Below, in pieces: positions 20,361 to 38,545 of a DNA stretch of 43,452 nt; positions within the stretch are counted from its first letter, which is position 1, and every line of letters starts with the position of its first letter. The notes under the pieces are model-generated. The model had not been told where the DNA came from. It was given only the letters and a program-made list of their open reading frames with translations, and ran no database searches. Location of the stretch: IMG/VR virus record IMGVR_UViG_3300037557_000126, positions 1 to 43,452 of that record. One strand, given 5' to 3'. The translations under genes and the position numbers were made by a program. The stretch is from a virus.

Positions 20361-20693
20361 CTATCCCTCGACTAGCCTGTTCACGGTGTCGTCGTGGGTG
20401 TTTTTCATCGGTATCGAGTCGAGATTTACGTTTTCGGACTTCGCACCCTTGTTAGCGACATCCTCGGAATCTAGGAGACTCTGGTTAGTGTTGTAGAAAG
20501 CATTGTATGTTTGTCCACCAGTTTCAATGTGGAAAGTCGAATCATCTGCTGTAGTTCCAAAGGACTGAGCCTTGTGATGTTCGCCTTTCTCTATTTTAGC
20601 CTCTTCAAGAGCGCTTAGTCTCTTTTCCACATCATGGGCTTTCCTTAGTAGTTCGTATGCCTCTGCGGAGGCCGCTTCATATCTTGGCTTCAT
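20361..20693 (-). CDS. Small coiled-coil head protein, unknown
   Basis: 110 residues, ATG overlapping the previous stop by one base. The first 45 residues form a predicted coiled coil (AYELLRKAHDVEKRLSALEE); the rest is polar and disordered. Member of a trio of small proteins between portal and the giant gene. May be a scaffold-like or portal-associated protein; nothing diagnostic. Confidence 0.5.
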   Translation of the reverse strand: MKPRYEAASAEAYELLRKAHDVEKRLSALEEAKIEKGEHHKAQSFGTTADDSTFHIETGGQTYNAFYNTNQSLLDSEDVANKGAKSENVNLDSIPMKNTHDDTVNRLVEG

Positions 20694-21034
20694 TAATACA
20701 TCTCCTTAACTTCTCTGTGTTGGTCTGCCATATCGTGTATTTCATCCCAAGTCATCTCATGAATCTCAGTGTTACTAAACTTATCGGGGTCAGACCTGCT
20801 CCCACCATCTTCTTTCTTGATAGTTTGAACGTCTGCTCTGAACGCATCTACTTCAACATCTTCTGAATACGGTGTTGAATACGGCACAAATCCTGCTTTC
20901 TTCAAAATAAATTGGGGGTTCTCCATTACTCTCCTAAGAGATGCATTCTCCGCTTTGAGAATCTGAACCTCATTATCCATACTCTCCATCTTAGAAATGA
21001 GAGTGTTCATGAGTTTCTCAGTGCCTTCTTCCAT
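20693..21034 (-). CDS. Small coiled-coil protein with MTWDE C-terminal peptide
   Basis: 113 residues. Residues 1-40 are a leucine-heptad coiled coil (LISKMESMDNEVQILKAENA). The C-terminus EMTWDEIHDMADQ matches the end of the protease-scaffold protein (QMSWDEVHHLASK) and the MSWDE in the 243-residue protein. This looks like a shared docking peptide, perhaps for the capsid or portal, and suggests a scaffold-like protein removed or retained at maturation. Confidence 0.55.
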   Translation of the reverse strand: MEEGTEKLMNTLISKMESMDNEVQILKAENASLRRVMENPQFILKKAGFVPYSTPYSEDVEVDAFRADVQTIKKEDGGSRSDPDKFSNTEIHEMTWDEIHDMADQHREVKEMY

Positions 21035-21434: not shown

Positions 21435-23156
21435 TCATGCGCCTCTAGGCCGTCTTGCGTTCATTAATGCGCGACTATTGTCCTGTGCTTGGGAATTAGG
21501 TGGCCCACGCTGTTGAACAGAAGATACTGGAGAGCCAATTCCGAAAGATGTTCGTCTGTCTGGTGCTGCTGGGCTTCTTGGCGTTCGTATACCTTGCCCC
21601 TCTCCTCCGGGTTGTGATGGGGGCATAAGACCGGGCGGAACTGCACCCATTTGCTCGGCCATTGGCCCGCCGCTTCCGGGAGACATTCCTGCTGGAGGTT
21701 GCATACCGGGAGGCATGGGCGCAGCACCATCTTGTTGTGGATTCATCTGTCGATAGGTGAATCGTATATCCCTATCACCCTCTTCCATGAGTTCTGGCTT
21801 GTATCCGAGCATCATCATCCTCTGTGCGAGATTGACTTCCATCTCATCTCTACGTAGTCTAGTTATCTCGTCTTCTTCCTCATTTGGATAAAGAGTAATC
21901 TTCCAATCTGTAACTTCCATCTGCTTTAGCATTCTAGGGAATAACACTTGAGTGTATACCTTCTGACCGAACTCCACGGCTCTGTTGGTCACCAATATCT
22001 GCATACCTTCGTTATTTAGTCCACCGGATTTACCGCTGTCTATCATGAATATGCTACTAACACCATAAAATGCAGCAATCCTATTTCTCATCTCATCTCT
22101 AACTGGAATATATTGCATTTCCTCAAGCGTATCCATGAACTTAACCCAATTTACGCCGCCTCTTCCAGTAGCCGACTCTATGCCCACCTTGGGGATATAA
22201 TGCGGGTCGCGTTCCATTTTCTCATCAACAGACTTCCAGAACGACTTCATTGACTCAAGGTTATCCGTAGTGACAGATATAATTCCCTTGGGAGAGCGCC
22301 TCTTTTGGTATGCTGTATACATGTAATTATCCATTGCTGTCAGAGTCATAGCCTGTCGCCACATGGTGTTGACTGGACTCTTACCATACAATTTGGATGG
22401 ATTGTATTTGCTAATATGCAAAACTTCCCCTTCCAAATAATACTGCGTTTTACCGCTCCCAGCCATGTTAGCGTAATGGGCTTCCTGCATGTTATTACCA
22501 CACACTTCGCAAGTATCGTCCTGACCGGGATAGGAGATTTGGTCACGATGTAGTGGACACACTTTGTATCTTCCACCACGCACCCCTCTCTTATCTGAGA
22601 TGATGCGCATAAAGATGGGGTCTCCACGTATGACTTCCTTTACCCTGTAGAACTTAATATCTGATGTTTCTGGCTCTACAAAGTATTCCTTTATCATAAT
22701 TAAAAACGCATCATCTACCACATTCAAATCACGCTCTACCTCGTTGAGAACGTGCATAAAGTCCTGCTCCATGGAATTCTGTTGGTCTAATAACCACTTT
22801 GGATACATCAATTGATTGACGTCTGGTGCTCTAGTTTCACCACCACATAAATTGCATTGCTCTACCTCGTGACTAAATTCCTCTCGGCATTGAGTGCACT
22901 TATGCTGAAATTTCTTTTCCCAATAATATCCTCTTCTGAATATCTCTTGAGATAATTTTGATATAACAGTCCTAAGAATCAGATTCTCCTGTGATACGGC
23001 ATATAACGCTGGAATCGTAATTCCCTGTGCTAGAACTGGCTCTTGTATACCCGTAGTGTATAGGGGCATTTGTGGTTCTGGCGTTGTCCTGCGCCTGAAT
23101 GGTGCTGCTATGGTAGACAAAAATCTCCCTATTGCACCTTGTTCTTCATCTGCCAT
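21435..23156 (-). CDS. Portal protein with two zinc-ribbon insertions
   Basis: 573 residues from ATG at 23156, which overlaps the upstream TAA (TAATG) and has GGAGGCGATATA before it; the longer frame from 23174 is less likely. The core has portal landmarks: an N-terminal wing, VLHISKYNPSKLYGKSPV, a long alpha region YMYTAYQKRRSPKGIISV, VRDEMRNRIAAFYGVSSIFM and a helical stem/crown, then a Pro/Gly/Met-rich tail of about 110 residues. Two metal sites are inserted: C87, C90, C101, C104 and C200, H203, C216, C219. It forms the dodecameric ring through which DNA enters and leaves and on which terminase docks. Its place downstream of terminase and upstream of protease and capsid genes is canonical. 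The zinc sites are unusual for portals. Confidence 0.85.
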   Translation of the reverse strand: MADEEQGAIGRFLSTIAAPFRRRTTPEPQMPLYTTGIQEPVLAQGITIPALYAVSQENLILRTVISKLSQEIFRRGYYWEKKFQHKCTQCREEFSHEVEQCNLCGGETRAPDVNQLMYPKWLLDQQNSMEQDFMHVLNEVERDLNVVDDAFLIMIKEYFVEPETSDIKFYRVKEVIRGDPIFMRIISDKRGVRGGRYKVCPLHRDQISYPGQDDTCEVCGNNMQEAHYANMAGSGKTQYYLEGEVLHISKYNPSKLYGKSPVNTMWRQAMTLTAMDNYMYTAYQKRRSPKGIISVTTDNLESMKSFWKSVDEKMERDPHYIPKVGIESATGRGGVNWVKFMDTLEEMQYIPVRDEMRNRIAAFYGVSSIFMIDSGKSGGLNNEGMQILVTNRAVEFGQKVYTQVLFPRMLKQMEVTDWKITLYPNEEEDEITRLRRDEMEVNLAQRMMMLGYKPELMEEGDRDIRFTYRQMNPQQDGAAPMPPGMQPPAGMSPGSGGPMAEQMGAVPPGLMPPSQPGGEGQGIRTPRSPAAPDRRTSFGIGSPVSSVQQRGPPNSQAQDNSRALMNARRPRGA

Positions 23157-24328
23157 TATATCGCCTCCGTCCACTTAGTTACGTCTTCCGCCTCTACGCC
23201 CCACTCATCTAGGAGAGCATTGGACTTTTTGGTGTCATCGCTCCAGTTATGGAATTTAACTACCTTCTTTAGTTCTTCTTTCCTTAAACCATCAGTTTCT
23301 TCTATGAATGCTAGAACTGCTTTCGCTTGCGTCTTCTTCATCTCCAAGAAAGGTAGTATGCCCTTCAGTAACTTGCTGATATCTGCCTTTGAGTAAAACT
23401 GTAGCCTATGTTGGCTTCTCTGATTGTCACTGTATACCTTCTGGTCTAGTTGTAGAATACCGCAATCAAGTGTTTTCTGCAATTGCTCACAGTGAATCTT
23501 ACCTCTTGTTCCTGTCGCTATGAAACCTGCTCTAGGTTCTCCACGTTTAGTTATGGTGATGTAACCGTCAGCATCAAGGAACCCAGCGGCATACGCCCAT
23601 GGGTCTTTGATTATCAAACCAGTCTTGTCCATTTTCACAAAAGTTCCCCTTGTGGCGCCATTGATAACATCTACTTCCTCTCCATAAATAGACAGTAGTT
23701 TACTGAGTTTAGTGGATGTCATACTCTTGTGTAAGACTTTCCTATCCCATAAGTTCTCAAAGATTGTTCTACCACTCATAGAACCTTTGTCTTGTAACAA
23801 TTCAGCGCTCTTGGCAAGCGCCTCTTGTTCCTTGTCTGTAAGTTTCTGAGTCTGATTGAGGGTCATTTTCCATATTTTGCGCGCATCTCTCCTTGTATCC
23901 ATGGCATTTACCCACGCTTTGCGCTCTTCATCTCCCCAGACATCATCGTAATCATCTAGGGCTTTTAGTGCATCGTCAGCCTTTTCCCATTGTAAGCATG
24001 CTCTTTGCAAACTCGTGCTCCGACTATCTCCAAATTTTCGTAGAGACCTCATATCGCGGTCACTTACCCCTATGCTTCTTATGGTATCTGAATGCTTCAA
24101 ACACCAATCGTGCATATTGAACGTTGCTTCCACTTCCATCGCCTTTAGCATTCTGACTTCTTCGATTGCAGAGTCTATGAAATCCTTGTCGGCTTTGTTG
24201 TGCCTTCTGGCTTTCTTTAATCTCTTCACTAAATTAGCAGCAGAATACCCAAGATTGGTTTCAAACCAACCTTCTCCGTTACTTGGAAACGTGTTCATCA
24301 TCTCACGTCCACAATGTAGTATTTTCAT
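23156..24328 (-). CDS. LAGLIDADG homing-endonuclease-like protein between terminase and portal
   Basis: 390 residues. Residues 1-220 are helical and unrecognised (ANLVKRLKKARRHNKADKDF, then KIWKMTLNQTQKLTDKEQEA). Residues about 243-345 form a single-motif LAGLIDADG domain: AAGFLDADGYITI at 247-259 with the acidic D253/D255 pair, GTRGKIHCEQLQKTL, and the C-terminal pattern QLDQKVYSDNQRSQHRLQF with KADISKLLKGILPFLEMKK. Single-motif members act as homodimers that nick or cut DNA at long sites. The gene is stand-alone and tightly packed: its TAA overlaps the portal ATG. It could be a mobile endonuclease, or a domesticated nuclease helping packaging. The N-terminal half is much longer than in ordinary family members. 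Confidence 0.75.
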   Translation of the reverse strand: MKILHCGREMMNTFPSNGEGWFETNLGYSAANLVKRLKKARRHNKADKDFIDSAIEEVRMLKAMEVEATFNMHDWCLKHSDTIRSIGVSDRDMRSLRKFGDSRSTSLQRACLQWEKADDALKALDDYDDVWGDEERKAWVNAMDTRRDARKIWKMTLNQTQKLTDKEQEALAKSAELLQDKGSMSGRTIFENLWDRKVLHKSMTSTKLSKLLSIYGEEVDVINGATRGTFVKMDKTGLIIKDPWAYAAGFLDADGYITITKRGEPRAGFIATGTRGKIHCEQLQKTLDCGILQLDQKVYSDNQRSQHRLQFYSKADISKLLKGILPFLEMKKTQAKAVLAFIEETDGLRKEELKKVVKFHNWSDDTKKSNALLDEWGVEAEDVTKWTEAI

Positions 24329-24361: not shown

Positions 24362-25822
24362 TCATGGTATCATCCAATCCTTATTGCTCTCTCCCTTGAA
24401 CCAACTATCAAATCCGGGCATATAATCGTCTAATAGGATTACGCTACCCTTGAACTCCTTAGATGCCCAATTTGCTAGGGCGATGCTCATCGCCAAGTCG
24501 TCATGGGCTCCCACGCTCTCTAACTTCCCACTCTTCTGCATACCGAAGCGATTCAACTCAGTCTCCAACTGATGAGTATATTTCTTACTTCTCTCGTCTC
24601 CATATGGAGTTTTGATGTGGCCTTGTTCAAATGCAAGAAGAAGAGACATAAACAGTGATTCCTTACGTGTGCGCGTAGTCATAAAAACTCTAATTGGCAT
24701 GTCTGCCCGTAACTCCCTCATTTCTTGCTCAAGCATTCTCTGGAAGTTGTTACCCTCAAGTTCAATAAGTTCAGGCTGAAACTTACTGTTGAGCATAACC
24801 ATCATTCTTTTCTGGGCCATTGATGACATACCTCGCTCATGAACAACATGCACAATTTCCTTCCTATCTTGTTCATCTGGTTTTATTCTCATTACGGTCA
24901 TAGCAGTAAAATCAGCATTTTTATCAGATGCTATTGCGGGGTCATGCCCTATGAAGTGCTGTCCGAAAACTCCGTTGGGCTCTCCCTCCTCGTCGTAATT
25001 CGTATCTGCTCTATCGATAAGAACTAGATTAGTGTCTCTCGCTTTTTCCAACAAAGGCATAGGAAACATACTTGCAACATCGTGAATTGGCTCACATAGA
25101 TACTCACGAGTAAATTGTATAGCGGGCATAGACATCCGCCTTTGCTCAAGAGAATCCATATCCCACCTTTCAGGCCACAATGCTATCCCTTCAGCATCGA
25201 TAGCAGGATAGGTCTCTACTCTGAATGTCTCCTTCTGCTCTAGTTCAGCATACAGGTCATTGTAACTGAATGGTGTTCCTACCATCATTAATTTACTGCT
25301 GTGGTGAAGAACAGGTAAGAGAACACCATAGAACCAGTCTGCTGTCTTTGCTAATTCAGTAGTAGTTGTTCCCCATAGAATATCATCGCATACTACAATA
25401 TCAGGGTGGAATCCACGTGTTGCTCCACCAACCGACTTTGCCATCATACGACTACCATTTGAAAACTCAAAGTATGATTTTGCCCATGGTTTACCTTGTG
25501 GTTTCAAATGTCGGAGTATATCATTTTCCTCTATCAAATTACGAATAAATCTCATGTGCTCAAGAGTCTGCTCCAACGAATGCGAAAATACCATGACGTG
25601 TTTACCGGGATTAAATGCGGCTAGCCATAGCGCATATGTCATGAAGAAGACGGATTTACCATGGTCACGAGAAGCCTTTACGCAGTAGTATTGAGATTCC
25701 TCAAGACCCTCCTTCCAAGACTCATGATGATGATTGTATAGAAAGCCAAGTGTATCTACGAAGAAATACTTGAATGACTTTTTACACATCTCTCTGTCAA
25801 TGTTCAAGATGAACTCATCCAT
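24362..25822 (-). CDS. terL: Large terminase subunit (packaging ATPase-nuclease)
   Basis: 486 residues, ATG after the end of the 243-residue gene. N-terminal ATPase: a deviant Walker A KASRDHGKSVFF (G55-K56-S57), Walker B IVVCDD (142-147) and the coupling segment MMVGTPFSYNDL. C-terminal RNase-H-like nuclease: FIGHDPAIASDKNADFTA (first Asp), LIELEGNNFQ (second acidic) and VGAHDDLAMSIALANWA (last Asp pair). Full usual length with no truncation. It drives DNA into the prohead through the portal, encoded 1.2 kb downstream, and cuts the concatemer. Small terminase candidate is at 30803-31486. Confidence 0.93.
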   Translation of the reverse strand: MDEFILNIDREMCKKSFKYFFVDTLGFLYNHHHESWKEGLEESQYYCVKASRDHGKSVFFMTYALWLAAFNPGKHVMVFSHSLEQTLEHMRFIRNLIEENDILRHLKPQGKPWAKSYFEFSNGSRMMAKSVGGATRGFHPDIVVCDDILWGTTTTELAKTADWFYGVLLPVLHHSSKLMMVGTPFSYNDLYAELEQKETFRVETYPAIDAEGIALWPERWDMDSLEQRRMSMPAIQFTREYLCEPIHDVASMFPMPLLEKARDTNLVLIDRADTNYDEEGEPNGVFGQHFIGHDPAIASDKNADFTAMTVMRIKPDEQDRKEIVHVVHERGMSSMAQKRMMVMLNSKFQPELIELEGNNFQRMLEQEMRELRADMPIRVFMTTRTRKESLFMSLLLAFEQGHIKTPYGDERSKKYTHQLETELNRFGMQKSGKLESVGAHDDLAMSIALANWASKEFKGSVILLDDYMPGFDSWFKGESNKDWMIP

Positions 25823-26564: not shown

Positions 26565-29008
26565 AGTCTCCCTCCGAATACTACCTTCACGACCTTGACC
26601 ACGGTATCATTATATCCGTATGTCTTGGTTATCCTCTCCCAGTCTCCTTGGCTATGTAGTATAGTTCGCACATCAAGAGGGGAGATTTCCATCATCTTGG
26701 CTACATGCTGAACATCGTATATCGAATCTGAGTTGAATGTCTGGTTAGGGACGTGCTTCATCACTTGCCCGTCTAATCGCGCTTCCTCTATCTGCAATAA
26801 CTCCACTATTCTACCTACGTTATCTGCTTTGGTGAATCTTGGGTCTGTGATGAATGTCTGATATGGGTCTCCTACATTCTGTTGGAACTCCCTTAACCTC
26901 TGCTCTTGCGCTGCTTCCGGCGTTCCCAATCCAGTTCTACCCCATTCGGATATACTCTGCCCCGGCGATGGGGCGCCTGTCGGCAACCCACCCTCAGGTA
27001 ATCTACGATGCTGCGTATAGACATCCCTGACCTCAGACATTGGCGCAGTTCCAAATCTGGCTCTCATCTGCTGGTTAGGGGTGAGTCCGGGCGTATTGGG
27101 GTCAACTTGTAACGGAGATGGCCTAACTGCGACTTGTGATTGGGGTGGAGGGGCTTGAGTTGCAGCCGCGCCCCTCCTTGAATCTGGCATAGGGTGACCT
27201 GCATCACCAGTAGGTGGTCCCCGAAGAGTGGTTGGTGGAGGAGGCGCTGCCTCTGCTGTGGGAGTAATAGGCTGAAGAACTTCTGAATATGGTATATGGT
27301 CGGGAACTCCGAGCATGCTCCTGTCTTCTGCCGTCCCACCTTGTATGATGTGGCTGATTATCGGCTGTATCTCCGCAAGTTCCTCCTGTGTCGGGAGTTC
27401 CTTGTGCTCGTGACCACCTGCTATAGTGTTGACTCTGAAAATTGAATCAAGCATTTCTTTTACTTCTGGTGCTGCATCTCTCATCTCTGGTGTATCATGT
27501 AGATTTATTCCGGCAGCAAGCAATTCCTCAGGTGACATATCATCTTCTGCATGATTATATCCTAGAGATGCCGCTAGGACTGCATTGCTCCAGTTATCCT
27601 TTGCTCTAGCGTGATGTGCAACTTTAGTGGTATGTTGATGTCCTGTGAAGTTATCCACTCTAGCAGAATGAGACATCATCATATCGAGTCCTCTACCTTC
27701 TTCTGCGTCATCACCATATCTCTGCCCATACGCATGTAGTAGTTTACCAACAGTATTAGGTCTCCCTTTCTGATTGCCTTCCTCATCAAACTTAGGCATT
27801 CTGTTTTCACCATATACTGCTTGGAATGCTGGATATTGAGATAAATGCCTAGCCAAATCTGCCATTGGCCCTTGCCACTCCATTATCGGCTCGCCGTTCT
27901 TCTTCCTCTTTCCAGTATCAACAAGTTTGGGAGGTACAAGTGATGCAGCGAGTGGAATGCCATTTGGTCCAAGAGTCTGCGCTGCGTATCTTTTTGCACC
28001 CTCAGAATCGACAATTGTATTGTTCATTCTACCTTCAGGGTCGTGTCCCATGGCTCTCATCATCTGAAAAACGAAACTATCAACAGTCTGCTTCCTCGGT
28101 TGTGGCCCACGCCGCGCTCCCGGTGCATGGTCTGATTGAGGTAGATAGTAGACTTTGGGCATATGGTGAGCGACTCCCCAAGATGTAATGTCCCTAAATG
28201 CCCTATTATCGGGTATCCTATCACCCCAGAGTTTGCTCATTTCATTTTCAACGCCACCATCGGCCTCTAATTTTCCAGAGCCAACTGCTTGTGCGCCAAA
28301 CATCATCCCTCCCTGCCCATCAGGAACTAGGTGCAACCTATGCGGCTTGACATATGGCTTCTTTACCCAACTGTGCTTTCTCGGATTAGGATGTCCTGCT
28401 TCTGACATCGCCTGCTCAAGTTGCGTGTTGAATGGGACTGCGTAGGATTCCAAGTATGTTCCATACTTGTGGTCTGCACCATGACCATTCGTGTAAGTGG
28501 TGATTAGTCCATTTTCGTTATGATTGCTTCTGACTGCGTGGTCTTGTTCGACTAAAGGTGAAAGATTAATTTTCCTCCAATCGACAGCGTCCGCATTAGG
28601 TAGATGATTCTTGGAATCGTGCTGCTGATTATGTAATTCTATTGCCTTCTGTACTATCTCCTTGCCTGAGATATTTATGCCGTGCTCCAGCATCGAACTA
28701 CCTACGGCTCGGATGACACCATCAATGCCGTGCATGTGGTGACCACCACCATCATCTTCGTAGAATTGCTCACCGTGTCTACCCTTCTGCCACTTTCCGG
28801 GATATCCTGCTCCTACACCGGGTATGCCGCTTTCTGCCTCCCCATGTCCTCCAGTATGAGCGAATGCAGGAAGGTCAAGCCCATTCGGGTCTGGATTTAT
28901 GGAGTCCGCTGGCGGGTATCGAGTCTTGTGCATGGCGCCGCCAAACTGAACGTAGTTTGCATCGCCCTTCATCAATAGGACTGCTTTGAGTATCATCGAA
29001 GTGTTCAT
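26561..29008 (-). CDS. Large His/Gly/Pro-rich internal-protein candidate
   Basis: 815 residues, ATG in an ATGA overlap. Starts MNTSMILKAVLLMKGDANYV, a short hydrophobic-basic leader like those of neighbouring proteins. The first 550 residues are His/Asn/Gly-rich in the same style as the 1,808-residue protein (HTGGHGEAESGIPGVGAGY, HHMHGIDGVIRAVGSSMLEH). Residues about 590-660 are Pro/Thr-rich and disordered. The last 60 residues hold a possible helix-turn-helix (YDVQHVAKMMEISPLDVRTI). I recognise no family. Location just upstream of terminase-side genes and the shared composition suggest a DNA-associated head protein, perhaps cleaved by the prohead protease. Confidence 0.5.
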   Translation of the reverse strand: MNTSMILKAVLLMKGDANYVQFGGAMHKTRYPPADSINPDPNGLDLPAFAHTGGHGEAESGIPGVGAGYPGKWQKGRHGEQFYEDDGGGHHMHGIDGVIRAVGSSMLEHGINISGKEIVQKAIELHNQQHDSKNHLPNADAVDWRKINLSPLVEQDHAVRSNHNENGLITTYTNGHGADHKYGTYLESYAVPFNTQLEQAMSEAGHPNPRKHSWVKKPYVKPHRLHLVPDGQGGMMFGAQAVGSGKLEADGGVENEMSKLWGDRIPDNRAFRDITSWGVAHHMPKVYYLPQSDHAPGARRGPQPRKQTVDSFVFQMMRAMGHDPEGRMNNTIVDSEGAKRYAAQTLGPNGIPLAASLVPPKLVDTGKRKKNGEPIMEWQGPMADLARHLSQYPAFQAVYGENRMPKFDEEGNQKGRPNTVGKLLHAYGQRYGDDAEEGRGLDMMMSHSARVDNFTGHQHTTKVAHHARAKDNWSNAVLAASLGYNHAEDDMSPEELLAAGINLHDTPEMRDAAPEVKEMLDSIFRVNTIAGGHEHKELPTQEELAEIQPIISHIIQGGTAEDRSMLGVPDHIPYSEVLQPITPTAEAAPPPPTTLRGPPTGDAGHPMPDSRRGAAATQAPPPQSQVAVRPSPLQVDPNTPGLTPNQQMRARFGTAPMSEVRDVYTQHRRLPEGGLPTGAPSPGQSISEWGRTGLGTPEAAQEQRLREFQQNVGDPYQTFITDPRFTKADNVGRIVELLQIEEARLDGQVMKHVPNQTFNSDSIYDVQHVAKMMEISPLDVRTILHSQGDWERITKTYGYNDTVVKVVKVVFGGRL

Positions 29009-30405
29009 GGTGTCCGCCCGCCTCTACTAGTTAGATGGTCAAGGGGATTGATTCCGAATGTACGAGGCTCGTTATTTGCGTCCTCAGTTGCGCCCTCAGG
29101 TCTTGTGGTTTCCTTAGTGGGCGCATTGTTGTGTCTAGGTAAGTTACTTCCTGCACCAGAAGTATCGCCGGTGCCCTTACCTTTCTTCTTCGACTCTTTC
29201 CTTTTTAGTGCTCTGCGAGCGTCATTAACTAGTTGTCGCAATTCGGCAATGTCATAGTATGATAGTCCCCTCTTCTGCAAATCGCTACCTACACCCACTT
29301 TGCTGGTCATAACCATGGATGGGCCGCCTTGCACTGTAGCAGATGGCATTCTGCTTGGAACGTATTGCGGTCCTCCTACCATGCTTTGGTTGGAGTATCC
29401 GCTTCTTGCTTGTGGCAGTGGTGGCGCTCCGGGAATAGGAGGTGCCCTAGGCATAGATGGTGCACGTGGCATTTGAGGAGGAACTAGAGGTGGTGCCCTA
29501 ACTTGTCGCAGTGGAGGTGCTCTCATTCCAGCGGCTTGGCCGGGTAGAAGACTCTGTAGTATTCCACCACCAGTCTTTCCAGACCTGTATGAGCGTGCCC
29601 CATATCTCGATGGAGTTGCTGCAACTGTCCTAACGTTACCCAATCGCTTTCTTGCTTCAGATTGACCTAGATATTGTCTGTATCTCCTAGGGTCTTTTGA
29701 CATGGGTTGCTTGGTCTTCACACCACGGTGTGACATCTCGACAGCCAGATGCGCTCTGCTTAATCCGGTTTTCTTGCCACCTTTGATGCCACGCATTCTG
29801 GCCTTTGCCCTGCGTGATGTGGCGCTTCCGGGTGTCATACCTCCGGGTGGCCTCTTAAACTCGCCAGTGGAAGGTCTCCACTTCTTACTTCTCTCCTTGT
29901 GGTCTTTGGCTGCCTTCTTGCCTTTCTTCTTCTTTGGTTTCTTACCGATGAAACCCTGTCGCTCATCTCTCTTCAATAACTGGAATGCAATATCCATTGG
30001 TTCTCCCATAGCAAAAGCATGCCCACCAGCGAATCCCGGACCTCGTGCTTGAGTCGCTAAACTAGTTAGAGCACCCATGTTACCATGAGTTCCAGTCATC
30101 AAGGACGGTTCCAATTCGTTATCGAACTTAGTTGGCTCTAAATCCTCGTCCTTTTCATTAATACTGTCTACAGTGATGGGTATATGAGGTAGTTTCTTCA
30201 TCTCTTTTGCTCTTTCTTCTCTTGCACTACGCTTTTTCTCGGTGCGCTCATCTCGATGCTTGGTATCTTCATGACCTGTTCCTGTGCTCTCGTCTTCATT
30301 ATTAGCACGAAACATCGTAGATGATTCGCTTCTAGGATTGTATATACGAGTATCACGAAGACTCATAATACCGTCACTAGATTTACGAATGAGTATCTTG
30401 GTCAA
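29005..30405 (-). CDS. Basic, proline-rich protein carrying the EPMDIAFQLLK peptide
   Basis: 466 codons from TTG at 30405 (TTGA overlap), with GGGGTGG five bases before it; no better start exists. Leader MTKILIRKSSDG. EPMDIAFQLLK is at 29971-30003, immediately followed by a very basic region (KKPKKKKGKKAAKDHKERSK, RRAKARMRGIKGGKKTG, DPRRYRQYLGQSEARKRLG) and then a repeated RAPP/MPRAP segment. The charge suggests DNA condensation or neutralisation inside the head. The peptide recurs in two other genes at 35417-37778. Family unknown. Confidence 0.5.
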   Translation of the reverse strand: MTKILIRKSSDGIMSLRDTRIYNPRSESSTMFRANNEDESTGTGHEDTKHRDERTEKKRSAREERAKEMKKLPHIPITVDSINEKDEDLEPTKFDNELEPSLMTGTHGNMGALTSLATQARGPGFAGGHAFAMGEPMDIAFQLLKRDERQGFIGKKPKKKKGKKAAKDHKERSKKWRPSTGEFKRPPGGMTPGSATSRRAKARMRGIKGGKKTGLSRAHLAVEMSHRGVKTKQPMSKDPRRYRQYLGQSEARKRLGNVRTVAATPSRYGARSYRSGKTGGGILQSLLPGQAAGMRAPPLRQVRAPPLVPPQMPRAPSMPRAPPIPGAPPLPQARSGYSNQSMVGGPQYVPSRMPSATVQGGPSMVMTSKVGVGSDLQKRGLSYYDIAELRQLVNDARRALKRKESKKKGKGTGDTSGAGSNLPRHNNAPTKETTRPEGATEDANNEPRTFGINPLDHLTSRGGRTP

Positions 30406-31518: not shown

Positions 31519-31788
31519 TTACTTAGAATACACTCGTGTAATACGCTGATATATCTGAGTCAACAATATAAACGAGACAAAAATACCCATCATGTAAATG
31601 GACATTTCCATCTGGTTTATCTCATTATTCTTGAATACGAGTATCCCTAAGAAAACTAATATGGCACTGATGAGTTGAATCATCACCATATCTACGACAA
31701 CTTGCCTCTTAGGAGCAAGCATGTGCATACTCATATCTGCAAATTGTCTTGGAACTAAACCACTCATGGAATTAGACCCGCCCATCAT
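31519..31788 (-). CDS. Small two-helix membrane protein
   Basis: 89 residues, ATG in a TAATG overlap. Two membrane segments: VVVDMVMIQLISAILVFLGI (about 30-49) and SIYMMGIFVSFILLTQIY (about 63-80), joined by a short polar turn (FKNNEINQMEM), and a basic C-terminus. Hairpin topology and size would suit a holin, but the linked genes (GTPase, other membrane proteins) point to a membrane complex instead. Last gene of the group begun at 35297. Confidence 0.55.
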   Translation of the reverse strand: MMGGSNSMSGLVPRQFADMSMHMLAPKRQVVVDMVMIQLISAILVFLGILVFKNNEINQMEMSIYMMGIFVSFILLTQIYQRITRVYSK

Positions 31789-32468
31789 TATGCTCTACCT
31801 CCAAACATCAGGTTTCTCATAAACGAACCGCCCGCCTCGGCAGCACCAGTTACTAAACCGGGGTCGGCCATTGCATTGGCTAGTTGTGCTTGTAACATAC
31901 TGTTTCCAGCATTCTGCATTGTTTGCATCTTAATTTGGTCTGCTTGTCCAATAATTTGTCCAAGTTGTGCATTTAGTGCAGTCACCAGCGCCATTATGTT
32001 CTCGGCACTCATAGTCTGTAATTCTGGTGGAAGTGCAGTAGTATCCAAAGAGAATACACCATTTTCCTCATCGAAGGTGTAAGTTGCGTTCTTCATCACA
32101 TTGAGTAAGGAGAAAGTAGTAATGCTATTTATTATATCGAGGATAGAGCCAAAGAGAGGAGATGCTAGAAATCTCTCTACCGAATACTGCTGGTCTAACA
32201 TCGTCATTAGAATCTCCGTATCACTGGGCGGCATAATTGCTTGCGGATTGTAAGGGTCTTGTCCTGTAAATCCAGCAAACATAGCGCCTGCCGCACTTGG
32301 TTGTCCTTGTTGTGGTGGAAACCAATTCTGGGCAGCCTGTGGTGAACTATACCCTGTATGTGCAACTTGAGACGAACCGTAGCCCGCGTATCCGTTTGTT
32401 AGTGGTGCTCCAGACTGGCTCAAATTGAGGCTCAGTCCATTATTTGTTTGTGGTTGTCCGAATGTCAT
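31788..32468 (-). CDS. Gln/Gly-rich protein of the GTPase operon
   Basis: 226 residues, TAATG overlap with the zinc gene and ribosome site GGAGGCGCAATA. N-terminal 75 residues are Gln/Asn/Gly/Tyr-rich and disordered (GYGSSQVAHTGYSSPQAAQN); the middle has hydrophobic segments (SPLFGSILDIINSITTFSLL) that could be amphipathic or membrane-touching; the C-terminal half is helical, Ala/Met/Gln-rich. No family recognised. Composition is similar to the 317-residue neighbour, with which it may assemble. Confidence 0.5.
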   Translation of the reverse strand: MTFGQPQTNNGLSLNLSQSGAPLTNGYAGYGSSQVAHTGYSSPQAAQNWFPPQQGQPSAAGAMFAGFTGQDPYNPQAIMPPSDTEILMTMLDQQYSVERFLASPLFGSILDIINSITTFSLLNVMKNATYTFDEENGVFSLDTTALPPELQTMSAENIMALVTALNAQLGQIIGQADQIKMQTMQNAGNSMLQAQLANAMADPGLVTGAAEAGGSFMRNLMFGGRA

Positions 32469-33421
32469 TATTGCGCCTCCTGCATTAACTCTGGTGGTAG
32501 CGGACTAGGTTGTATGTTTTGAGCCTGTTGATTGAGAACATCTTGGAAGGCCTGTGTTGGAGTTGCCATTTCAAGGAGTTCTTGTTGGAACATCCTCATA
32601 TCAAATGTGATTGTAGTGATGTCGTTTTCTCCTGTGGTTGGATTAGTATAGTGCTGCATATTGATGCCCTTGCTCTTTCGTGAATCTGCTGAAATCTCAG
32701 CAAAGAAAGGCTCATATTTAGTAATCAAAGGATGTGAAGGTGCTTGATTCTGACCTGTTACAGTGGATATAGGCACAGTCACTATGCTGACACCCTTCTT
32801 AATTTTATCACGAAATCTACTAGGTCTGAGTTCTGCCTCGCGCTCTTCTTCCTCCTCCCATTTACAAAGCAGGTGGTATAGGTGCAAGTGTTCGGGGCAA
32901 TATGTGGCTCTGAGTTTCCTACCGCTAGTTACTCCTTCTCTGGCTATGAATGCCTCAGGTTCTCCCGTAACTGGATTCTGCCAATACATATCCCAGAGAC
33001 TCTTACCAGTCTCATCATCAGTTATACGAGAATAGAGATTGTCGTATTGAATTAGTTCCATTACATTACACCCATCTACACAACATACCGCTGTATCCTT
33101 ATTGTATCGATAATTACTCCATCCCCATCGCCTTGGGTCTAGTATCGACCTCTTTGTTGGCTTCAGAAGTTTGTATGCTTGCCTAATATCTTGCCTTCTT
33201 GCCTTTACTGGATTGGCGTGTCTCGATGGATAGAAATTTACCTTTGGAACTTCTATGTTTTTCTCCGCCGCCATCTTCTGCATTTGTTGCTGCGCCGCTG
33301 CTTGTTCCATTAACATCGCATGTGTAAAGCCGGGATTCCCTTGTTGCGAGAGAGCCATCAATGTGGCATCATTCACTTGTGCAAGATTTTGATTGGGCTG
33401 TTGCCAGTAATTCATCACCAT
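32468..33421 (-). CDS. Zinc-site protein of the GTPase operon
   Basis: 317 residues, ATG after GGAGTGATACA. Gln/Met-rich helical N-terminus (AAAQQQMQKMAAEKN), then a compact cysteine/histidine region: C113, C114, C118 (AVCCVDGCN) and C175, H178, H180, C186 (YCPEHLHLYHLLC), likely one metal site, followed by a Glu run and a basic stretch (RPSRFRDKIKKG). The end is Gln/Pro-rich. Not recognised. Translation is probably coupled to the AbrB-like gene five bases upstream. A structural or adaptor protein for the membrane group is a guess. Confidence 0.5.
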   Translation of the reverse strand: MVMNYWQQPNQNLAQVNDATLMALSQQGNPGFTHAMLMEQAAAQQQMQKMAAEKNIEVPKVNFYPSRHANPVKARRQDIRQAYKLLKPTKRSILDPRRWGWSNYRYNKDTAVCCVDGCNVMELIQYDNLYSRITDDETGKSLWDMYWQNPVTGEPEAFIAREGVTSGRKLRATYCPEHLHLYHLLCKWEEEEEREAELRPSRFRDKIKKGVSIVTVPISTVTGQNQAPSHPLITKYEPFFAEISADSRKSKGINMQHYTNPTTGENDITTITFDMRMFQQELLEMATPTQAFQDVLNQQAQNIQPSPLPPELMQEAQ

Positions 33422-33425
33422 TGTA

Positions 33426-33602
33426 TCACTCCTGAGGGGTCACTGAAATAGACATTGCGTCATTTTCGACCTTTAACGACCACTCTATCCTGTCTCCTGC
33501 ATTCAAATTGAACTGTTCTATTATCCACATTGGCACAGTAGTTCTCAAGGAATTACTACCCCCTGTGGAAACCAATGCAGTGGTCGAACTACCTCTCGTC
33601 AT
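33426..33602 (-). CDS. AbrB/SpoVT-like DNA-binding domain protein
   Basis: 58 residues from ATG at 33602, preceded by GGAG; a TTG at 33656 overlapping the GTPase stop would add 18 residues. The sequence GSNSLRTTVPMWIIEQFNLN then AGDRIEWSLKVENDA is the swapped-hairpin AbrB pattern, with the SLRTTVP strand-loop and GDRIEW turn found in many archaeal regulators and antitoxins. It dimerises to bind DNA in known families. Here it lies inside the membrane/GTPase operon and may autoregulate it; the repeat-bearing region at 35298-35416 is a candidate target. No toxin gene is visible beside it. Confidence 0.75.
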   Translation of the reverse strand: MTRGSSTTALVSTGGSNSLRTTVPMWIIEQFNLNAGDRIEWSLKVENDAMSISVTPQE

Positions 33603-33645
33603 GTATCTCCGACTCCTATCTACTTCAAAAAGGTCACTTACGAGG

Positions 33646-34356
33646 TCAATAATCAATCATACTTAGTAAAGCGGGTTCTACATTCCATCCTATGCGCGTA
33701 GCCATAAAATCACGCTTGGTAGGTATACCTGCTTTTTGAAGCCTAATCAGGTCATCACGAAAGGGGTCAAATATCATATGTTCGCCTATTCTTCCTTGTT
33801 GCCATAATGTTGCAGCCTTGCTATCGAAGTAACGGTCTGCTTTGTTGGCAACTAGTAGAATTAAACGAGGGGCGTATTTCTTGCCTTTTCGCCAACTCTT
33901 CCAATTTCTATACCTGTATTGCCTATTGATTACCGAATCCACTAAAAATTTGAAACCGCCTATCTGGTCTACTGCTCCTTCTTTGAAAGCACGGTCATCA
34001 AACATGTATACAACATACTCACATTGTCTAGCGACCATGTCGTCTATCCATAAATTCCAGAATCGCTCCTCACCACCTATATCAGCGGAATGAACTACTC
34101 TTCTTTCGCCTTCCCAACGGAGTCTCTTCCTTGTTGGTTTAGGTAGGATATATCTCGTTATCATTTTGAAATGCTTAGTTCTCTCATCGAGAGGTATATC
34201 CTCCATCTCTCCCGGCGTAGTCATATATTGGTCAAGTGTGGTTTTTCCTACCATGGATGCGCCATATATTCCTACTCTTCTAGGTTTCCAATTATTGTAT
34301 AATTGTTTACCCCATAGGGCAACGCCCACCAATACGCTTCCGCCGCCAACAGCCAT
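33646..34356 (-). CDS. Arf-like small GTPase with N-terminal hydrophobic segment
   Basis: 236 residues. G1 P-loop GASMVGKTT (32-40), G3 DIGGEERFW (92-100; the D.GG form is typical of Arf/Sar/SR-beta and G-alpha proteins, unlike the DTAGQ of Ras), G4 NKAD (171-174) after the strand RLILLVA. Residues 3-20 (VGGGSVLVGVALWGKQL) form a hydrophobic membrane-anchor-like helix, also Arf- or SR-beta-like. A basic insertion lies at about 146-160 (RQYRYRNWKSWRKGKK). G5 is not obvious. GTP binding is well supported. It sits between a one-helix membrane protein and the AbrB-like gene, so it probably works at the membrane, perhaps in remodelling or recruiting virion parts. Viral Arf-like GTPases are rare. 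Confidence 0.82.
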   Translation of the reverse strand: MAVGGGSVLVGVALWGKQLYNNWKPRRVGIYGASMVGKTTLDQYMTTPGEMEDIPLDERTKHFKMITRYILPKPTRKRLRWEGERRVVHSADIGGEERFWNLWIDDMVARQCEYVVYMFDDRAFKEGAVDQIGGFKFLVDSVINRQYRYRNWKSWRKGKKYAPRLILLVANKADRYFDSKAATLWQQGRIGEHMIFDPFRDDLIRLQKAGIPTKRDFMATRIGWNVEPALLSMIDY

Positions 34357-34362
34357 ACCGCA

Positions 34363-34650
34363 TCAACTGAACTTTCCAGTCAGCCAAACGCCAAAATCTG
34401 CTATTTGTTGATAAAACCATTCGACTGTTAATTCCCATAGATTCCAATCGGTGTTTGCTTCCATTGCGGACACTGACAAAGCAGCGGCAATAGACAAAAG
34501 TATTGTTCTAACCCACCCTATGCCCCACTCATATGTGTTATCTACCGTATTTGCTAGATGCATTGCCCGTAGAGTTTCCTCTACAGAATCATCTTGGACG
34601 TTCCGAAATATGCGCATTGGAGAAGGAATGAGTTGACCGGGGAGTACCAT
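34363..34650 (-). CDS. Small one-helix membrane protein
   Basis: 95 residues, ATG after GTAGGGATATC, seven bases before the GTPase start. One membrane segment (WVRTILLSIAAALSVSAM, about 47-64) and an amphipathic, aromatic C-terminal helix (LWELTVEWFYQQIADFGVWL). The tryptophan-rich end suggests interface binding. Likely partner of the GTPase next to it; function unknown. Confidence 0.55.
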   Translation of the reverse strand: MVLPGQLIPSPMRIFRNVQDDSVEETLRAMHLANTVDNTYEWGIGWVRTILLSIAAALSVSAMEANTDWNLWELTVEWFYQQIADFGVWLTGKFS

Positions 34651-34664
34651 CTGATATCCCTACG

Positions 34665-35297
34665 CTAGGGTTTGTATCTTAAATCTGGTGTCCCATCTTT
34701 CTTCATTCGCTGCTGTGTTTGCGCCTGCTCTCTCATTACATCATCTGCCAAAGCGTTTAATCCAAGATTTAGAGGTGTATTGTTATCAGCCTGATGAACT
34801 GGGATGCCGGGATTGAATGTATTGTGATAGTCCCCTTGAACGCCTGCGCCGACATTACCGCCATTGTAGCCGGGTGAAATCCTATCAGGGTTTTCTTGCA
34901 ACATCCGCAGTTCGTTCTCTAATTGCATTTCTTGAACTCTTAGTTCCAAGTCCGCTCTTCTCTGCTCAAACCCATATTGCTGTTGCCTGAATGCGTCTTG
35001 TCTGGTTCTTTGCATTTCAGCAATCTGCACCTTCTCCTTCATTCCCTGCTCAAAGAACATCTTGAACAAGTAATATGCTATGGTTTGCACTGCCAGTGCT
35101 CCCATCGCATACGTCATACCGTTTATTGTGGAATCGGCCTCAGAACCGCCGGGTAACCATAATCCTGCACTGAATACCCCAACTGCAACCCCCACCAAAG
35201 CAGATTGGGACAGTATCAGCCCTGTCATCTTCATCTCATCTGTGTCGCTCATCTCTGTGACCTCGTGCTTGTCCACTAAGGAGGTCATCTTAAGCAT
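34665..35297 (-). CDS. Membrane protein with coiled coil, first gene of GTPase operon
   Basis: 210 residues, ATG at 35297 with no ribosome site, so a leaderless or short-leader transcript is likely. Two membrane segments (ILSQSALVGVAVGVFSAGLW about 28-47, TYAMGALAVQTIAYYLFKMF about 62-81), then a charged coiled coil (about 85-136: RRADLELRVQEMQLENELRM) and a Pro/Asn-rich disordered end. The topology places the coil on one side of the membrane as an assembly scaffold. Lead gene after the 119-bp noncoding region. Confidence 0.6.
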   Translation of the reverse strand: MLKMTSLVDKHEVTEMSDTDEMKMTGLILSQSALVGVAVGVFSAGLWLPGGSEADSTINGMTYAMGALAVQTIAYYLFKMFFEQGMKEKVQIAEMQRTRQDAFRQQQYGFEQRRADLELRVQEMQLENELRMLQENPDRISPGYNGGNVGAGVQGDYHNTFNPGIPVHQADNNTPLNLGLNALADDVMREQAQTQQRMKKDGTPDLRYKP

Positions 35298-35416
35298 TAC
35301 TGGAATCCAATTTGTCTAATGTCTAGTCTATACAGTTAGAAATATGAATAATTTAGTATTATGTCTATACGATACACTGGAATCATTGGACTTAGTTACC
35401 TTTGTCGAAGGGAGGT
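35298..35416 (-). promoter_or_regulatory. Promoter/operator region before the GTPase operon
   Basis: 119 noncoding bases, AT-rich. On the plus strand TTGTCTAATGTCT..TCTATAC lies at 35312-35333 and a further ATGTCTATAC at 35361-35370; the 22-base element recurs at 42191-42212 with only the two spacer bases changed. GATTCCAGT also occurs twice in the minus-strand direction. TATA-like candidates on the minus strand are TGTATAG and ATACTAAAT. A separately regulated promoter for 35297-31519 is inferred. Confidence 0.55.
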
Positions 35417-36940
35417 TCATCTCACCTTCACTCTCCGAAGCGTTCCCTTACCCTTGAAGTGCCTCGCTCGATTAGCATGAGGGCTTTCCAACGTTAGTTT
35501 GCCGCCTTGTGTATGGCTAACATCAGCACCGCCCTTACCGTATATACCACGCTTCCTACGCTCTGCGTTTAACTGCTCACGGTACTTAACGCGCCTAGGC
35601 GTCTTTTGATACTCGCTGTCATATCTCTTTTTGTTGGCCCAAGCCTCCGGTGACTTGCGCTCCTTGAGCAACTGGAAGACTATCTCTATCGGCTCGCTTT
35701 TGTTTGAGTAATACTCATTATACATCTTATCATAGTCATTATCATCGGTTTCCCCTTCCACCGCTTCAAGATGCTCTTGAGTTTCATATTGACGACCAGT
35801 TGCCCCAAGTAATACTTTCCTTCTTTTATCTCTAGCATTCAATGTTATTCTAGGGTCTCTGGGGCTATACTCTCTACTCCATTCGGAAGGGTCACTCGTA
35901 TTATCTGCTAGATTCTGCTCGGCAATTCTTCTGATACCAATCAATTTAGGGTTGGGAAGGTGTTGCACTGTCGCATACTTGAGCAACTGGAATGCTATGT
36001 CCATTGGTTCTGCTCTGTATAACTCAGCATCAGGCACATCCTCTAGTTTCTTTCCCGTTCTTGATGGGCCAAAAGGCACCCTACGGTCACTCCAACGAGT
36101 CGGTCCATCGAATATAGGGTGCTTCCCTCTTGGTATTCCCATCCTGCGAGCAGTGTCCATATAGTGCTCGTTCCTCTCCCCCGGCACATTCTCACGCATA
36201 GGAACTTCTACCAATGCTTCCGGTGGTATGTCTTTGTCGTGTTCTAAGAACATCTCTGCGAGTTTTTCCCTTGCTACGTCACTATCTCTCCGATGTGCTG
36301 TCCCATACTTGTTTGGGTCTCCTCTCAGTGCAACCACTTTCTTCGGCACCATCGTAGAACCTGCGGCTCTGTCGAAATTTTGTTCTGTCGGATGACTCCA
36401 CCAAGAACCCTCCGTGCCTTCTTGCACATCCATGAAATTCTTTACACCATTCTTGTACCAATAATGAGCGCCAGTCTCAGGGTCTCGATGTAACCAACCA
36501 TCCTTGTCTGGATAAATGTCATCCCTACTAGTCGGTGGCCTATCCTTCCACCCCGGTGGTGCAGGCTTACCATGAGGCGCTTCCACAGTGGGCGCATTAA
36601 AATCTACATCAGGTTGTTTACCCGGCAATCCTAGAAATCTATCAGGAGCGCCTTCAAACGAAGTCTGATAATCTCCTTGAGGCACAGGACTACCAGCACG
36701 ATAATCCCCCATATAGCGAATTGCTGATATGGGGTCTACACCCTCCCACCCAGTCGTCTCGTCTAATGATGTGTCATGTTGAGGTAGGATGTTCTGGCGA
36801 GAGTTAGCCATTGTCAGTCTTTTCTTTGAATCATTAATTTCTGGGCCATCGTATGCAACGCCTCCGGGCCCATATGGATTATCCACTGACGACCAAGAGT
36901 CGTATCCGCCTACTGATTTATTCACCAAAATATATGACAC
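35417..36940 (-). CDS. Disordered virion-type protein with two EPMDIAFQLLK-type peptides
   Basis: About 507 residues from GTG at 36940, two bases after the upstream stop; this start gives the leader (V)SYILVNKSVGG that matches MTKILIRKSSDG and MSKVLVRKQEGG of two other proteins. A longer frame from 36988 would overlap by 47 bases. Hydrophilic, Asp/Pro/Arg/Tyr-rich. EPMDIAFQLLK is encoded at 35978-36010 and EPIEIVFQLLK at 35663-35695, each followed by a basic stretch. C-terminus strongly basic (GIYGKGGADVSHTQGG ... RRVKVR). Suggests a DNA-associated internal protein with repeated sorting or cleavage peptides; function unproven. Confidence 0.5.
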   Translation of the reverse strand: MSYILVNKSVGGYDSWSSVDNPYGPGGVAYDGPEINDSKKRLTMANSRQNILPQHDTSLDETTGWEGVDPISAIRYMGDYRAGSPVPQGDYQTSFEGAPDRFLGLPGKQPDVDFNAPTVEAPHGKPAPPGWKDRPPTSRDDIYPDKDGWLHRDPETGAHYWYKNGVKNFMDVQEGTEGSWWSHPTEQNFDRAAGSTMVPKKVVALRGDPNKYGTAHRRDSDVAREKLAEMFLEHDKDIPPEALVEVPMRENVPGERNEHYMDTARRMGIPRGKHPIFDGPTRWSDRRVPFGPSRTGKKLEDVPDAELYRAEPMDIAFQLLKYATVQHLPNPKLIGIRRIAEQNLADNTSDPSEWSREYSPRDPRITLNARDKRRKVLLGATGRQYETQEHLEAVEGETDDNDYDKMYNEYYSNKSEPIEIVFQLLKERKSPEAWANKKRYDSEYQKTPRRVKYREQLNAERRKRGIYGKGGADVSHTQGGKLTLESPHANRARHFKGKGTLRRVKVR

Positions 36941-36941
36941 A

Positions 36942-37778
36942 CTACTGGCCACCTCGTAGTGCTCTCCTTGCTTCATCGTTTTGAGCATTGATTCTCGCTA
37001 TTGCTTCAGGAGTCCATGAAGGGTCAATGTTAGGCGGTAAAGGTTGGACGTTCGGGTCATCTCTTTTAGGAAAGGCAAACGGACTACCATCTCGTGCTTT
37101 AGCAGAATCCTTGAGTAATTGGAATGCAATATCCATTGGCTCACCAGTGCGAACTTTTCTTCCCATACCGATACTACTTGCTCGACCACCGTAAGTACCA
37201 AATTTCTCATTTTCAAACCTATCGTAAACAGGTTCACCTGATACATCCAATTTCTCTCTAGGGTTATCTATCCCCTCATTCATAATTTGTTGCCTCTCTT
37301 GGTCTTGCTGATATGCTAAATTACTCACATTGTTATCTCGTAATTCTTCTTCAGTAAAATTTCTACTACCGGGAGACGTATCGCCGTAGACCTCTTGCTC
37401 ATCCTCATCACGATATATTTGATGACGTCGCGGCCAATCGAAATCAGGGTCTCCTCGTTCAGCCATTTCCATATCATAATCCCGATTTCTCTTATCAGCA
37501 CCGCCATAACCTTCAGTTAATTGCCAATCTAAAGGATTCATCGGCGGTCCACTCAAATGTCCGCCACGATTTAGTGATTTAGGTGCTAGCGTTCTTCTAT
37601 CTGCTGCCTGCATATCTTTAGTATTGAGGCGAGGATGAGGGCTCTCCTTCATCACGTCATGTGGCTGTGCACCAGCGGCGGCGCCGTATTTCTTCTTGTC
37701 ATCCTTCTTTGAAGGCTTGACGCCAATCATGATTGCGATGCCGGGTTTTCCAGTGCCTGAACGAGGGTCGAACTTCAT
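36942..37778 (-). CDS. Disordered virion-type protein with EPMDIAFQLLK peptide
   Basis: 278 residues from ATG at 37778, which overlaps the previous stop as ATGA and has GGTGGTGGCGA before it (a longer frame from 37811 is less likely). Asp/Arg/Gly/Pro-rich, no membrane segment. EPMDIAFQLLK is encoded at 37110-37142, preceded by GRKVRT and followed by a basic/Pro-rich tail. Middle of the three-gene disordered set; same style as the 466-residue protein. Family unknown. Confidence 0.5.
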   Translation of the reverse strand: MKFDPRSGTGKPGIAIMIGVKPSKKDDKKKYGAAAGAQPHDVMKESPHPRLNTKDMQAADRRTLAPKSLNRGGHLSGPPMNPLDWQLTEGYGGADKRNRDYDMEMAERGDPDFDWPRRHQIYRDEDEQEVYGDTSPGSRNFTEEELRDNNVSNLAYQQDQERQQIMNEGIDNPREKLDVSGEPVYDRFENEKFGTYGGRASSIGMGRKVRTGEPMDIAFQLLKDSAKARDGSPFAFPKRDDPNVQPLPPNIDPSWTPEAIARINAQNDEARRALRGGQ

Positions 37779-38545
37779 TCGCCACCACCATTCCTGAATG
37801 AGTTGAACCAATCAGGATGGTTGTCCTTGTAATAGTTCATTACATCGGCGTCTTCATGATGGTCGTCTATATGTTGACGAAGTTTAGAAGCCTTGTCTTT
37901 CTTCTTGCGCGCTTCTCCACGTGTCTTACGCTTCTGATTGAGTGCTTCCTCCATGTATGATGGAAGGTCGTGCATCATTGCGGTTTGCTCATTACCATTC
38001 ATTTTCGTAACAGCAGCCCTCCTACCTAATTCAGTATCGCTTAGTAAATCTTGTCTCCACTGAGGGTAATCTCGTCCGAAATTGCGGACTTCCTCGTCAG
38101 TCGGATGGTCTTTTTGATAAGCGGAAGTTTGTGGCGCACTCGTCATCCTCTTGTTATCTGGATTATGATATGCTTCCCATTGGTCTGTGGGGTCGTCTAC
38201 ACTACCATAGGGCAAGGTTGGTGCATTACGCTCTGGGTGTCCCTCCAATACACCCTCTCGTTCTATACTTGCTGGGTACCCACGACCAATATGTCTGTTA
38301 GGTTGCCAAACATCGAGATTCAAGTTAGGTAATTCACGCCGCGAGGCTGCTTGTCTTTCCATCATTCCATAGATAGCAGGATGTATAGTGCCCTCTCCGG
38401 TTTGTCTTTCACCGACGTCAATACCACCATCAGCGGTATGGTCGTAAGTCTTCTCTGCCAAATTTTCTCTTGGGTAAGCAGACGAAAACATCTGATGTTC
38501 AGGTAGTGCTTTCAGGACCGAAAAGGCTGCATCTATTGGTGTCAT
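37775..38545 (-). CDS. First gene of the late operon, disordered protein with related N-terminal peptide
   Basis: 256 residues, ATG preceded by GGGGAGACGAA. The N-terminus MTPIDAAFSVLKALPE is a variant of the EPMDIAFQLLK peptide, here at the very start. The rest is polar with a lysine/arginine-rich segment (KRKTRGEARKKKDKASKLRQ) and acidic/His pieces near the end. It is the first minus-strand gene after the strand switch, so its upstream region should hold a late promoter. Function unknown. Confidence 0.5.
   Translation of the reverse strand: MTPIDAAFSVLKALPEHQMFSSAYPRENLAEKTYDHTADGGIDVGERQTGEGTIHPAIYGMMERQAASRRELPNLNLDVWQPNRHIGRGYPASIEREGVLEGHPERNAPTLPYGSVDDPTDQWEAYHNPDNKRMTSAPQTSAYQKDHPTDEEVRNFGRDYPQWRQDLLSDTELGRRAAVTKMNGNEQTAMMHDLPSYMEEALNQKRKTRGEARKKKDKASKLRQHIDDHHEDADVMNYYKDNHPDWFNSFRNGGGE

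Follow-up and report, generated by a model that had tools for sequence, protein, structure and literature searches.

Why would a tailed virus of marine archaea carry, among its late genes, an Arf-like small GTPase encoded next to several predicted membrane proteins? The question is raised by a linear virus fragment of 43,452 bp (IMGVR_UViG_3300037557_000126, the whole of which is called the window here) that, judging from its gene content, derives from a magrovirus-like tailed virus. The window contains the Magrovirales markers, namely the major capsid protein (MCP), protease, portal, TerL and an HMGL-like gene, the HMG-CoA lyase gene being a reported magrovirus marker (PMC10160649, PMC10768690). 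Furthermore, a viral family B DNA polymerase, whose position falls outside the window fragment, is encoded by 8 of 8 long relatives.

The late gene block and its surroundings

Seven tightly spaced ORFs, each with a plausible start, occupy positions 31519-35297 on the minus strand (Table 1), and the intergenic gaps or overlaps of only a few bases suggest that the genes may be translationally coupled. A preliminary description of this DNA had presented the region as a seven-gene operon; its ORFs and coordinates stand, with the amendment that the AbrB gene is optional, which leaves six core genes, five of which are recognised in a second virus group. The putative TerS gene is the next gene downstream of the block in all loci and is followed in the window by TerL, portal, protease and an SU10-type MCP, and the 3′ end of a 523-aa ORF lies upstream of the gap before g1, at 35417. 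PADLOC detected no defence family.

Table 1. Features of the GTPase block and adjoining genes in the window
Feature	Coordinates	Strand	Basis or remark
g1, 210 aa	34665..35297	-	membrane protein by hydropathy
g2, 95 aa	34363..34650	-	one hydrophobic helix by hydropathy
Arf-like small GTPase, 236 aa	33646..34356	-	motifs, AlphaFold2 model, profile matches
g4, AbrB/MazE-type DNA-binding-like, 76 aa from TTG	33426..33656	-	PF04014; accessory
g5, 317 aa, Cys/His probable zinc protein	32468..33421	-	A3 alignment
g6, 226 aa, Gln/Gly-rich N-terminus, C-terminal half more ordered	31788..32468	-	
g7, 89 aa, two transmembrane segments	31519..31788	-	hydropathy
AT-rich gap 5′ of g1, putative promoter/operator	35298..35416	.	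119 nt
Putative TerS, HTH, 227 aa	30803..31486	-	HTH_20 4.5e-5, under cut-off
TerL	24362..25822	-	PF17289/PF03237

With respect to the gap upstream of g1, the preliminary description had assigned the block a promoter region of its own; the AT-rich gap is present and is a putative promoter/operator, and in the window its inverted repeat does not exceed shuffles. In 42 of 144 relatives, no inverted repeat of the locus is stronger than the one in this gap, as judged by rank within the locus given that the mononucleotide-shuffle control is a weak one. This AT-rich repeat spans about 80 bp with arms of up to 37 bp (e.g., L104, L036, L120), and the palindrome is retained across clades despite differing sequence, raising the question of whether it might function as a promoter operator or as a replication origin.

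The AbrB-like assignment of g4 is substantiated by two relatives that score 25.1 and 25.8 bits against PF04014 (cut-off 24.7), the window protein itself scoring 20.8 bits, and its start, judged by alignment, is more likely to be the ATG at 33602, giving a predicted product of 58 aa, than the TTG at 33656. The gene is found in about 100 of the 181 loci, about 45% being without it, and it was not found in the second virus group. Accordingly, the AbrB gene is accessory, not the fixed member that it had been taken for, and the remaining six genes form the core.

Four large, probably disordered proteins that flank the block contain a peptide close to EPMDIAFQLLK (29005-30405; 35417-36988, twice; 36942-37811; 37775-38545), possibly a capsid-targeting or docking motif. 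The protease/scaffold protein and a small protein of the window (13340-14713 and 20693-21034) share the C-terminal sequence M(S/T)WDE(V/I)H, and comparable ends, MDWSDIHKM, occur in the second virus group. Immediately before the protease and the MCP, 14774-20200 encodes a late protein of very large size in which a weak DNA-ligase-like domain (PF01068) is recognised; it has a second-group counterpart at the equivalent place (L203, 3169-5691). The ORF at 23156-24328, between TerL and portal, resembles by eye a LAGLIDADG homing endonuclease, with no Pfam match at 0.01.

The GTPase and its partner proteins

The motifs read in the window protein by the preliminary description, GASMVGKTT (G1), DIGGEER (G3) and NKAD (G4), are exactly as claimed and occupy residues 32-40, 92-96 (DIGGE) and 171-174, respectively, with an N-terminal helix at residues 4-23, the G2 threonine at position 60 and G5 at 218-221. 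Residues K38, T39, T60, D92, G95, N171, K172 and D174 are invariant across 26 diverse members, and G1, the G2 threonine, DxGG, NKxD and G5 are kept among 148 distinct proteins of the first virus group and 67 of the second; the erosion of the motifs in relatives that the preliminary description had named as counting against its proposal is therefore not what is found. In the first group, G3 reads DxGG in 141 of the 148 proteins and DIAG in the other 7, and the residue that follows is Gln (101 proteins), Glu (39) or Asp (7); it is Glu in the window protein and in all 66 second-group proteins that were read. Given this substitution of Glu for Gln after DxGG, GTP hydrolysis by the viral GTPase may differ from that of Arf.

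The N-terminus had been described as hydrophobic. The helix is indeed predicted, but it is only mildly hydrophobic and contains no transmembrane segment by hydropathy; its hydrophobic moment is 0.27-0.35 compared to 0.27 for Arf1, and it is a candidate membrane-binding helix. The AlphaFold2 model (mean pLDDT 75) displays a Ras fold with this helix appended, the helix being modelled with low to fair pLDDT and the region between P-loop and switch I poorly predicted. In structural comparisons, all 1000 chains compared gave Z scores of at least 8, in agreement with a Ras-like fold, and the best were Arl8b (16.0), Arf1 (15.4), Arl1 (15.4) and Asgard ArfR (15.1 and 14.9); scores within 1 of each other count as tied, and Rab5 falls about 2 below the top Arf-family chains. 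The earlier classification as a D.GG-type GTPase is supported, and the predicted fold is Arf-like.

At the sequence level the relationship is remote. A look-up of the window GTPase in the PDB and in phage records retrieved no relative, and a profile built from both virus groups gave weak PDB matches to Rab33B, an Asgard Arf, SR-beta and Arl8 and, all below cut-off, Pfam matches to Roc, MMR_HSR1, Ras, SRPRB and Arf. The weak SRPRB matches involve 6 of 18 members (best 0.0022), and the cut-off of PF00025 is not reached, with matches in 2 of 18 members (best E 0.02) and none for the window protein. The best cellular matches, from a comparison that covered 227 Asgard genomes only, include Arf-like proteins with the signature D(M/L)GGQ..FW.LW, at E values down to 3e-10. 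Taken together, the fold, the profile matches and the Asgard matches indicate that the viral GTPases form a small-GTPase family of their own, Arf-like in character, that belongs to no curated family.

Among the partners, g1 shows a hydrophobic segment at residues 24-42, a weaker second one near 65-85 and a charged/coiled, disordered tail, with one or two transmembrane segments among relatives; g2 has a hydrophobic helix at 44-62 and about one transmembrane segment among relatives; and g7 has segments at 34-52 and 62-80, two being predicted in 129 of 141 relatives. By the same hydropathy analysis, g5 has no transmembrane segment and g6 usually none. No significant match was obtained for g1 in Pfam or PHROG. 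The pattern CxxxC ... GRxxRxTYCPEH characterizes g5, both motifs being present in 148 of 149 first-group and 56 of 68 second-group proteins, and the Cys knuckle together with GRxxRxTYCPEH reads as a putative structural zinc site. The predicted fold of g5 had no match in the PDB (best Z 3.6) and so corresponds to no nameable fold; identification of g5 as an ArfGAP or as OapC was considered and rejected, both Pfam and fold support being absent.

Conservation and linkage in two virus groups

Relatives of the GTPase are numerous in IMG/VR, at least 212 with one set of patterns and 421 with another. In 181 fetched loci, the order g1, g2, GTPase, g5, g6, g7, TerS is preserved on one strand, with g1 present in 177, g2 in 178 and g7 in all 181; the few loci without g1 or g2 include contigs that begin inside the block. 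Two samples avoid selection on the GTPase itself: in loci chosen via g5, the GTPase adjoins in 77 of 80, the other three being cut at the contig end and starting at g5, and among contigs chosen via TerL alone that reach far enough upstream, it is present in 42 of 42. Unlinked genes, which the preliminary description had named as counting against its proposal, were never found, and the linkage that it had proposed between the GTPase, the membrane proteins and the zinc protein holds with no exception seen. For each gene, dN lies below dS by a factor of roughly 5 to 50 (dN/dS roughly 0.02-0.2), which points to purifying selection on every gene of the block. The GTPase block is apparently a universal core component of these marine-archaeal tailed viruses.

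More remote homologues of the GTPase surfaced in a search of a contaminated MAG with profile A1 and led to a second virus group with 188 matches, as common as the first. This group has a lower G+C content (33-40%), and its PolB match is split over two separate frames; PolB in two pieces has been reported for the Aoguangviridae (PMC10768690); by these features the second group looks like Aoguangviridae-like magroviruses. The gene order is MCP, three small genes, g1, g2, GTPase, g5, g6, a large ORF and the neck adaptor, so that the five module genes recognised are g1-g2-GTPase-g5-g6; the predicted products are a g1 with two transmembrane segments, a g2 with one, a GTPase of 222 aa, a g5 of 222 aa and a g6 of 212 aa. 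Profile comparison with hhalign gave probabilities between the groups of 99.9% for the GTPase and 94.7% for g5, by which both are judged to be homologous, and of 53% for g6 (E 1e-4), which is probably homologous as well; between-group homology of g1 and g2 is not supported by profile comparison, the likeness being one of place and topology only. The block is located upstream of the terminase genes in the first group and between capsid and neck genes in the second, and this occurrence at two different late-gene places is the strongest sign that it constitutes one functional unit, the presence of the homologous module elsewhere in the genome of a sister group implying that the block travels as a unit.

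One second-group contig (IMGVR_UViG_3300021958_000021; 184,733 bp; L308 and L349) contains two GTPase copies about 90 kb apart, a spacing of about one genome length, and is likely a head-to-tail or chimaeric assembly. A scan of genome collections found only three MAG contigs with the viral GTPase, all apparently mis-binned virus. Apparently mis-binned magrovirus contigs occur in bacterial and Asgard MAGs (L102, L103, L104, L191, L192), and a Maricaulis MAG contains three of them, from two virus groups.

Possible functions and relation to known systems

What, then, might the block do? Because it repeats the combination seen in the archaeal ArvABC system, a GTPase with an N-terminal helix and a zinc protein, we infer a GTP-controlled membrane assembly. 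When an Arf protein exchanges its nucleotide, its N-terminal helix is released and can engage the membrane. By analogy, the viral GTPase in its GTP state would embed its helix in the archaeal membrane from the inside and there gather g1, g2 and g7 along with the soluble partners g5 and g6; g5 would be the likeliest regulator (GAP-like) or effector, given the parallels with ArvC and Arf-GAPs, and the AbrB-type protein could serve as an optional operon regulator. The assembled complex would then deform or open the membrane where virions assemble or leave. That the block is a conserved late (morphogenesis-region) magrovirus module built around such a virus-encoded switch is the interpretation we favor, at a little short of an even chance, the counter-points being the mild hydrophobicity of the N-helix, the Glu after DxGG and the lack of a recognisable GAP fold in g5. 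Its stronger form, under which these core genes would amount to a dedicated Arf-type membrane-deforming machine for assembly or for non-lytic or staged release, we regard as a tentative and rather unlikely extension. To our knowledge, membrane shaping of this type is known for no tailed virus.

The computed results also fit roles in the virion or in manipulation of the host, without separating these from membrane remodelling, and the terminase, capsid and neck neighbourhood fits a virion component equally. The products could form a membrane-active internal complex associated with the head or neck that is co-packaged with the DNA and ejected during entry, with the GTPase belonging to the packaged or assembly machinery. 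In the group of the window the block abuts TerS, and in the second group it is flanked by decoration-like genes and the neck adaptor; moreover, HVTV-1 of the Druskaviridae, in which the order of head and neck genes is related to that of the viruses described here, encodes gp124, a protein with one transmembrane segment, at the corresponding position, between the MCP and neck genes. However, the complete genome of HVTV-1 is without the GTPase despite its homologous head and neck genes, which implies that neither head nor neck as such requires the block, and a GTP switch would be unusual in a structural protein; we consider a virion-borne complex doubtful.

A less probable alternative, prompted by the resemblance of the viral GTPase to cellular switches and by the vesicle-forming activity of a small GTPase in euryarchaea (PMC10927574), is that it imitates a host small GTPase, or competes with one, in division, vesiculation or protein targeting, reprogramming the envelope rather than releasing virions; this fits poorly with a late-gene position and with co-inheritance with structural genes in both groups. 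Least probable, and in our estimate improbable outright, is a lysis cassette with g7 or g1 as a holin-like pore former and the GTPase merely as a timer: g7 is small with two transmembrane segments and g1 has a weak match to a holin PHROG, but the latter (E 0.22) is not significant, no endolysin-like gene was recognised in the block with Pfam or PHROG, and six co-conserved genes exceed the needs of such a cassette.

Should the favored interpretation of a membrane-remodelling module hold, magroviruses, which are widespread viruses of abundant ocean archaea, would bring their own machinery for the host membrane, and the block would offer a compact system in which GTPase-driven membrane work outside eukaryotes could be tested, as well as a first concrete lead on virion assembly at, or exit through, the archaeal membrane in viruses of the uncultured Poseidoniales.

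We found no prior description of the GTPase block in magroviruses, in keeping with the earlier statement that no described tailed virus has this set: none of the papers searched connects magroviruses with a GTPase, and the magrovirus and archaeal tailed-virus papers surveyed name none, a survey to which Philosof 2017, Zhou 2023 and Prabhu 2025 are external, and a bare 'GTPase' could conceivably stand in an earlier gene table.

Several cellular and viral systems invite comparison. The viral GTPase shares with Arf/Arl and Asgard ArfR proteins the GKTT P-loop, DxGG at G3, a predicted N-terminal helix, NKxD and the predicted fold, but it differs from Arf/Arl in an identity of only about 15%, a longer G1-G3 stretch, the frequent Glu for the catalytic Gln and the absence of the Gly2 used for myristoylation. 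The SRP receptor beta subunit is likewise a membrane-anchored Arf-like GTPase, to which the weak Pfam and PDB profile matches point, but its partner SR-alpha is not seen in the viruses and the neighbouring genes differ. The Rab/Ras GTPases of giant viruses are also virus-encoded members of the Ras superfamily, but they belong to viruses of eukaryotes and are annotated as Rab, Ran or Ras types, and we know of no membrane module linked to them.

The closest parallel in gene content is ArvABC (OapABC; Mills et al. 2024, PMC10927574), a euryarchaeal operon in which a GTPase bearing an amphipathic N-helix is encoded together with a zinc protein, much as the viral block pairs a GTPase that has a predicted N-terminal helix with a probable zinc protein. 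Vesicle formation in Haloferax volcanii is driven by ArvA, the small GTPase, and loss of the zinc-ribbon protein ArvC, proposed to be a GAP, results in more vesicles (PMC10927574). Nevertheless, the viral block has three extra membrane proteins and a late-gene location, and ArvA-type proteins read D(M/L/T)PG at G3 and group in a fully supported clade of their own (sampled by Asgard ArvA-type proteins only) in a GTPase tree whose backbone is unsupported and whose cellular rows were partly picked via the viral profile. Furthermore, the ArvC model PF09845 detected nothing in the window record and the ArvB model PF09846 nothing in 8 long relatives, the H. volcanii and M. acetivorans controls being positive. 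The missing ArvC and ArvB matches and the separate ArvA clade imply that the viral set is not itself ArvABC; with membrane vesiculation as the function of the archaeal operon, to which the viral block is likened from its genes alone, ArvABC is its nearest functional analogue.
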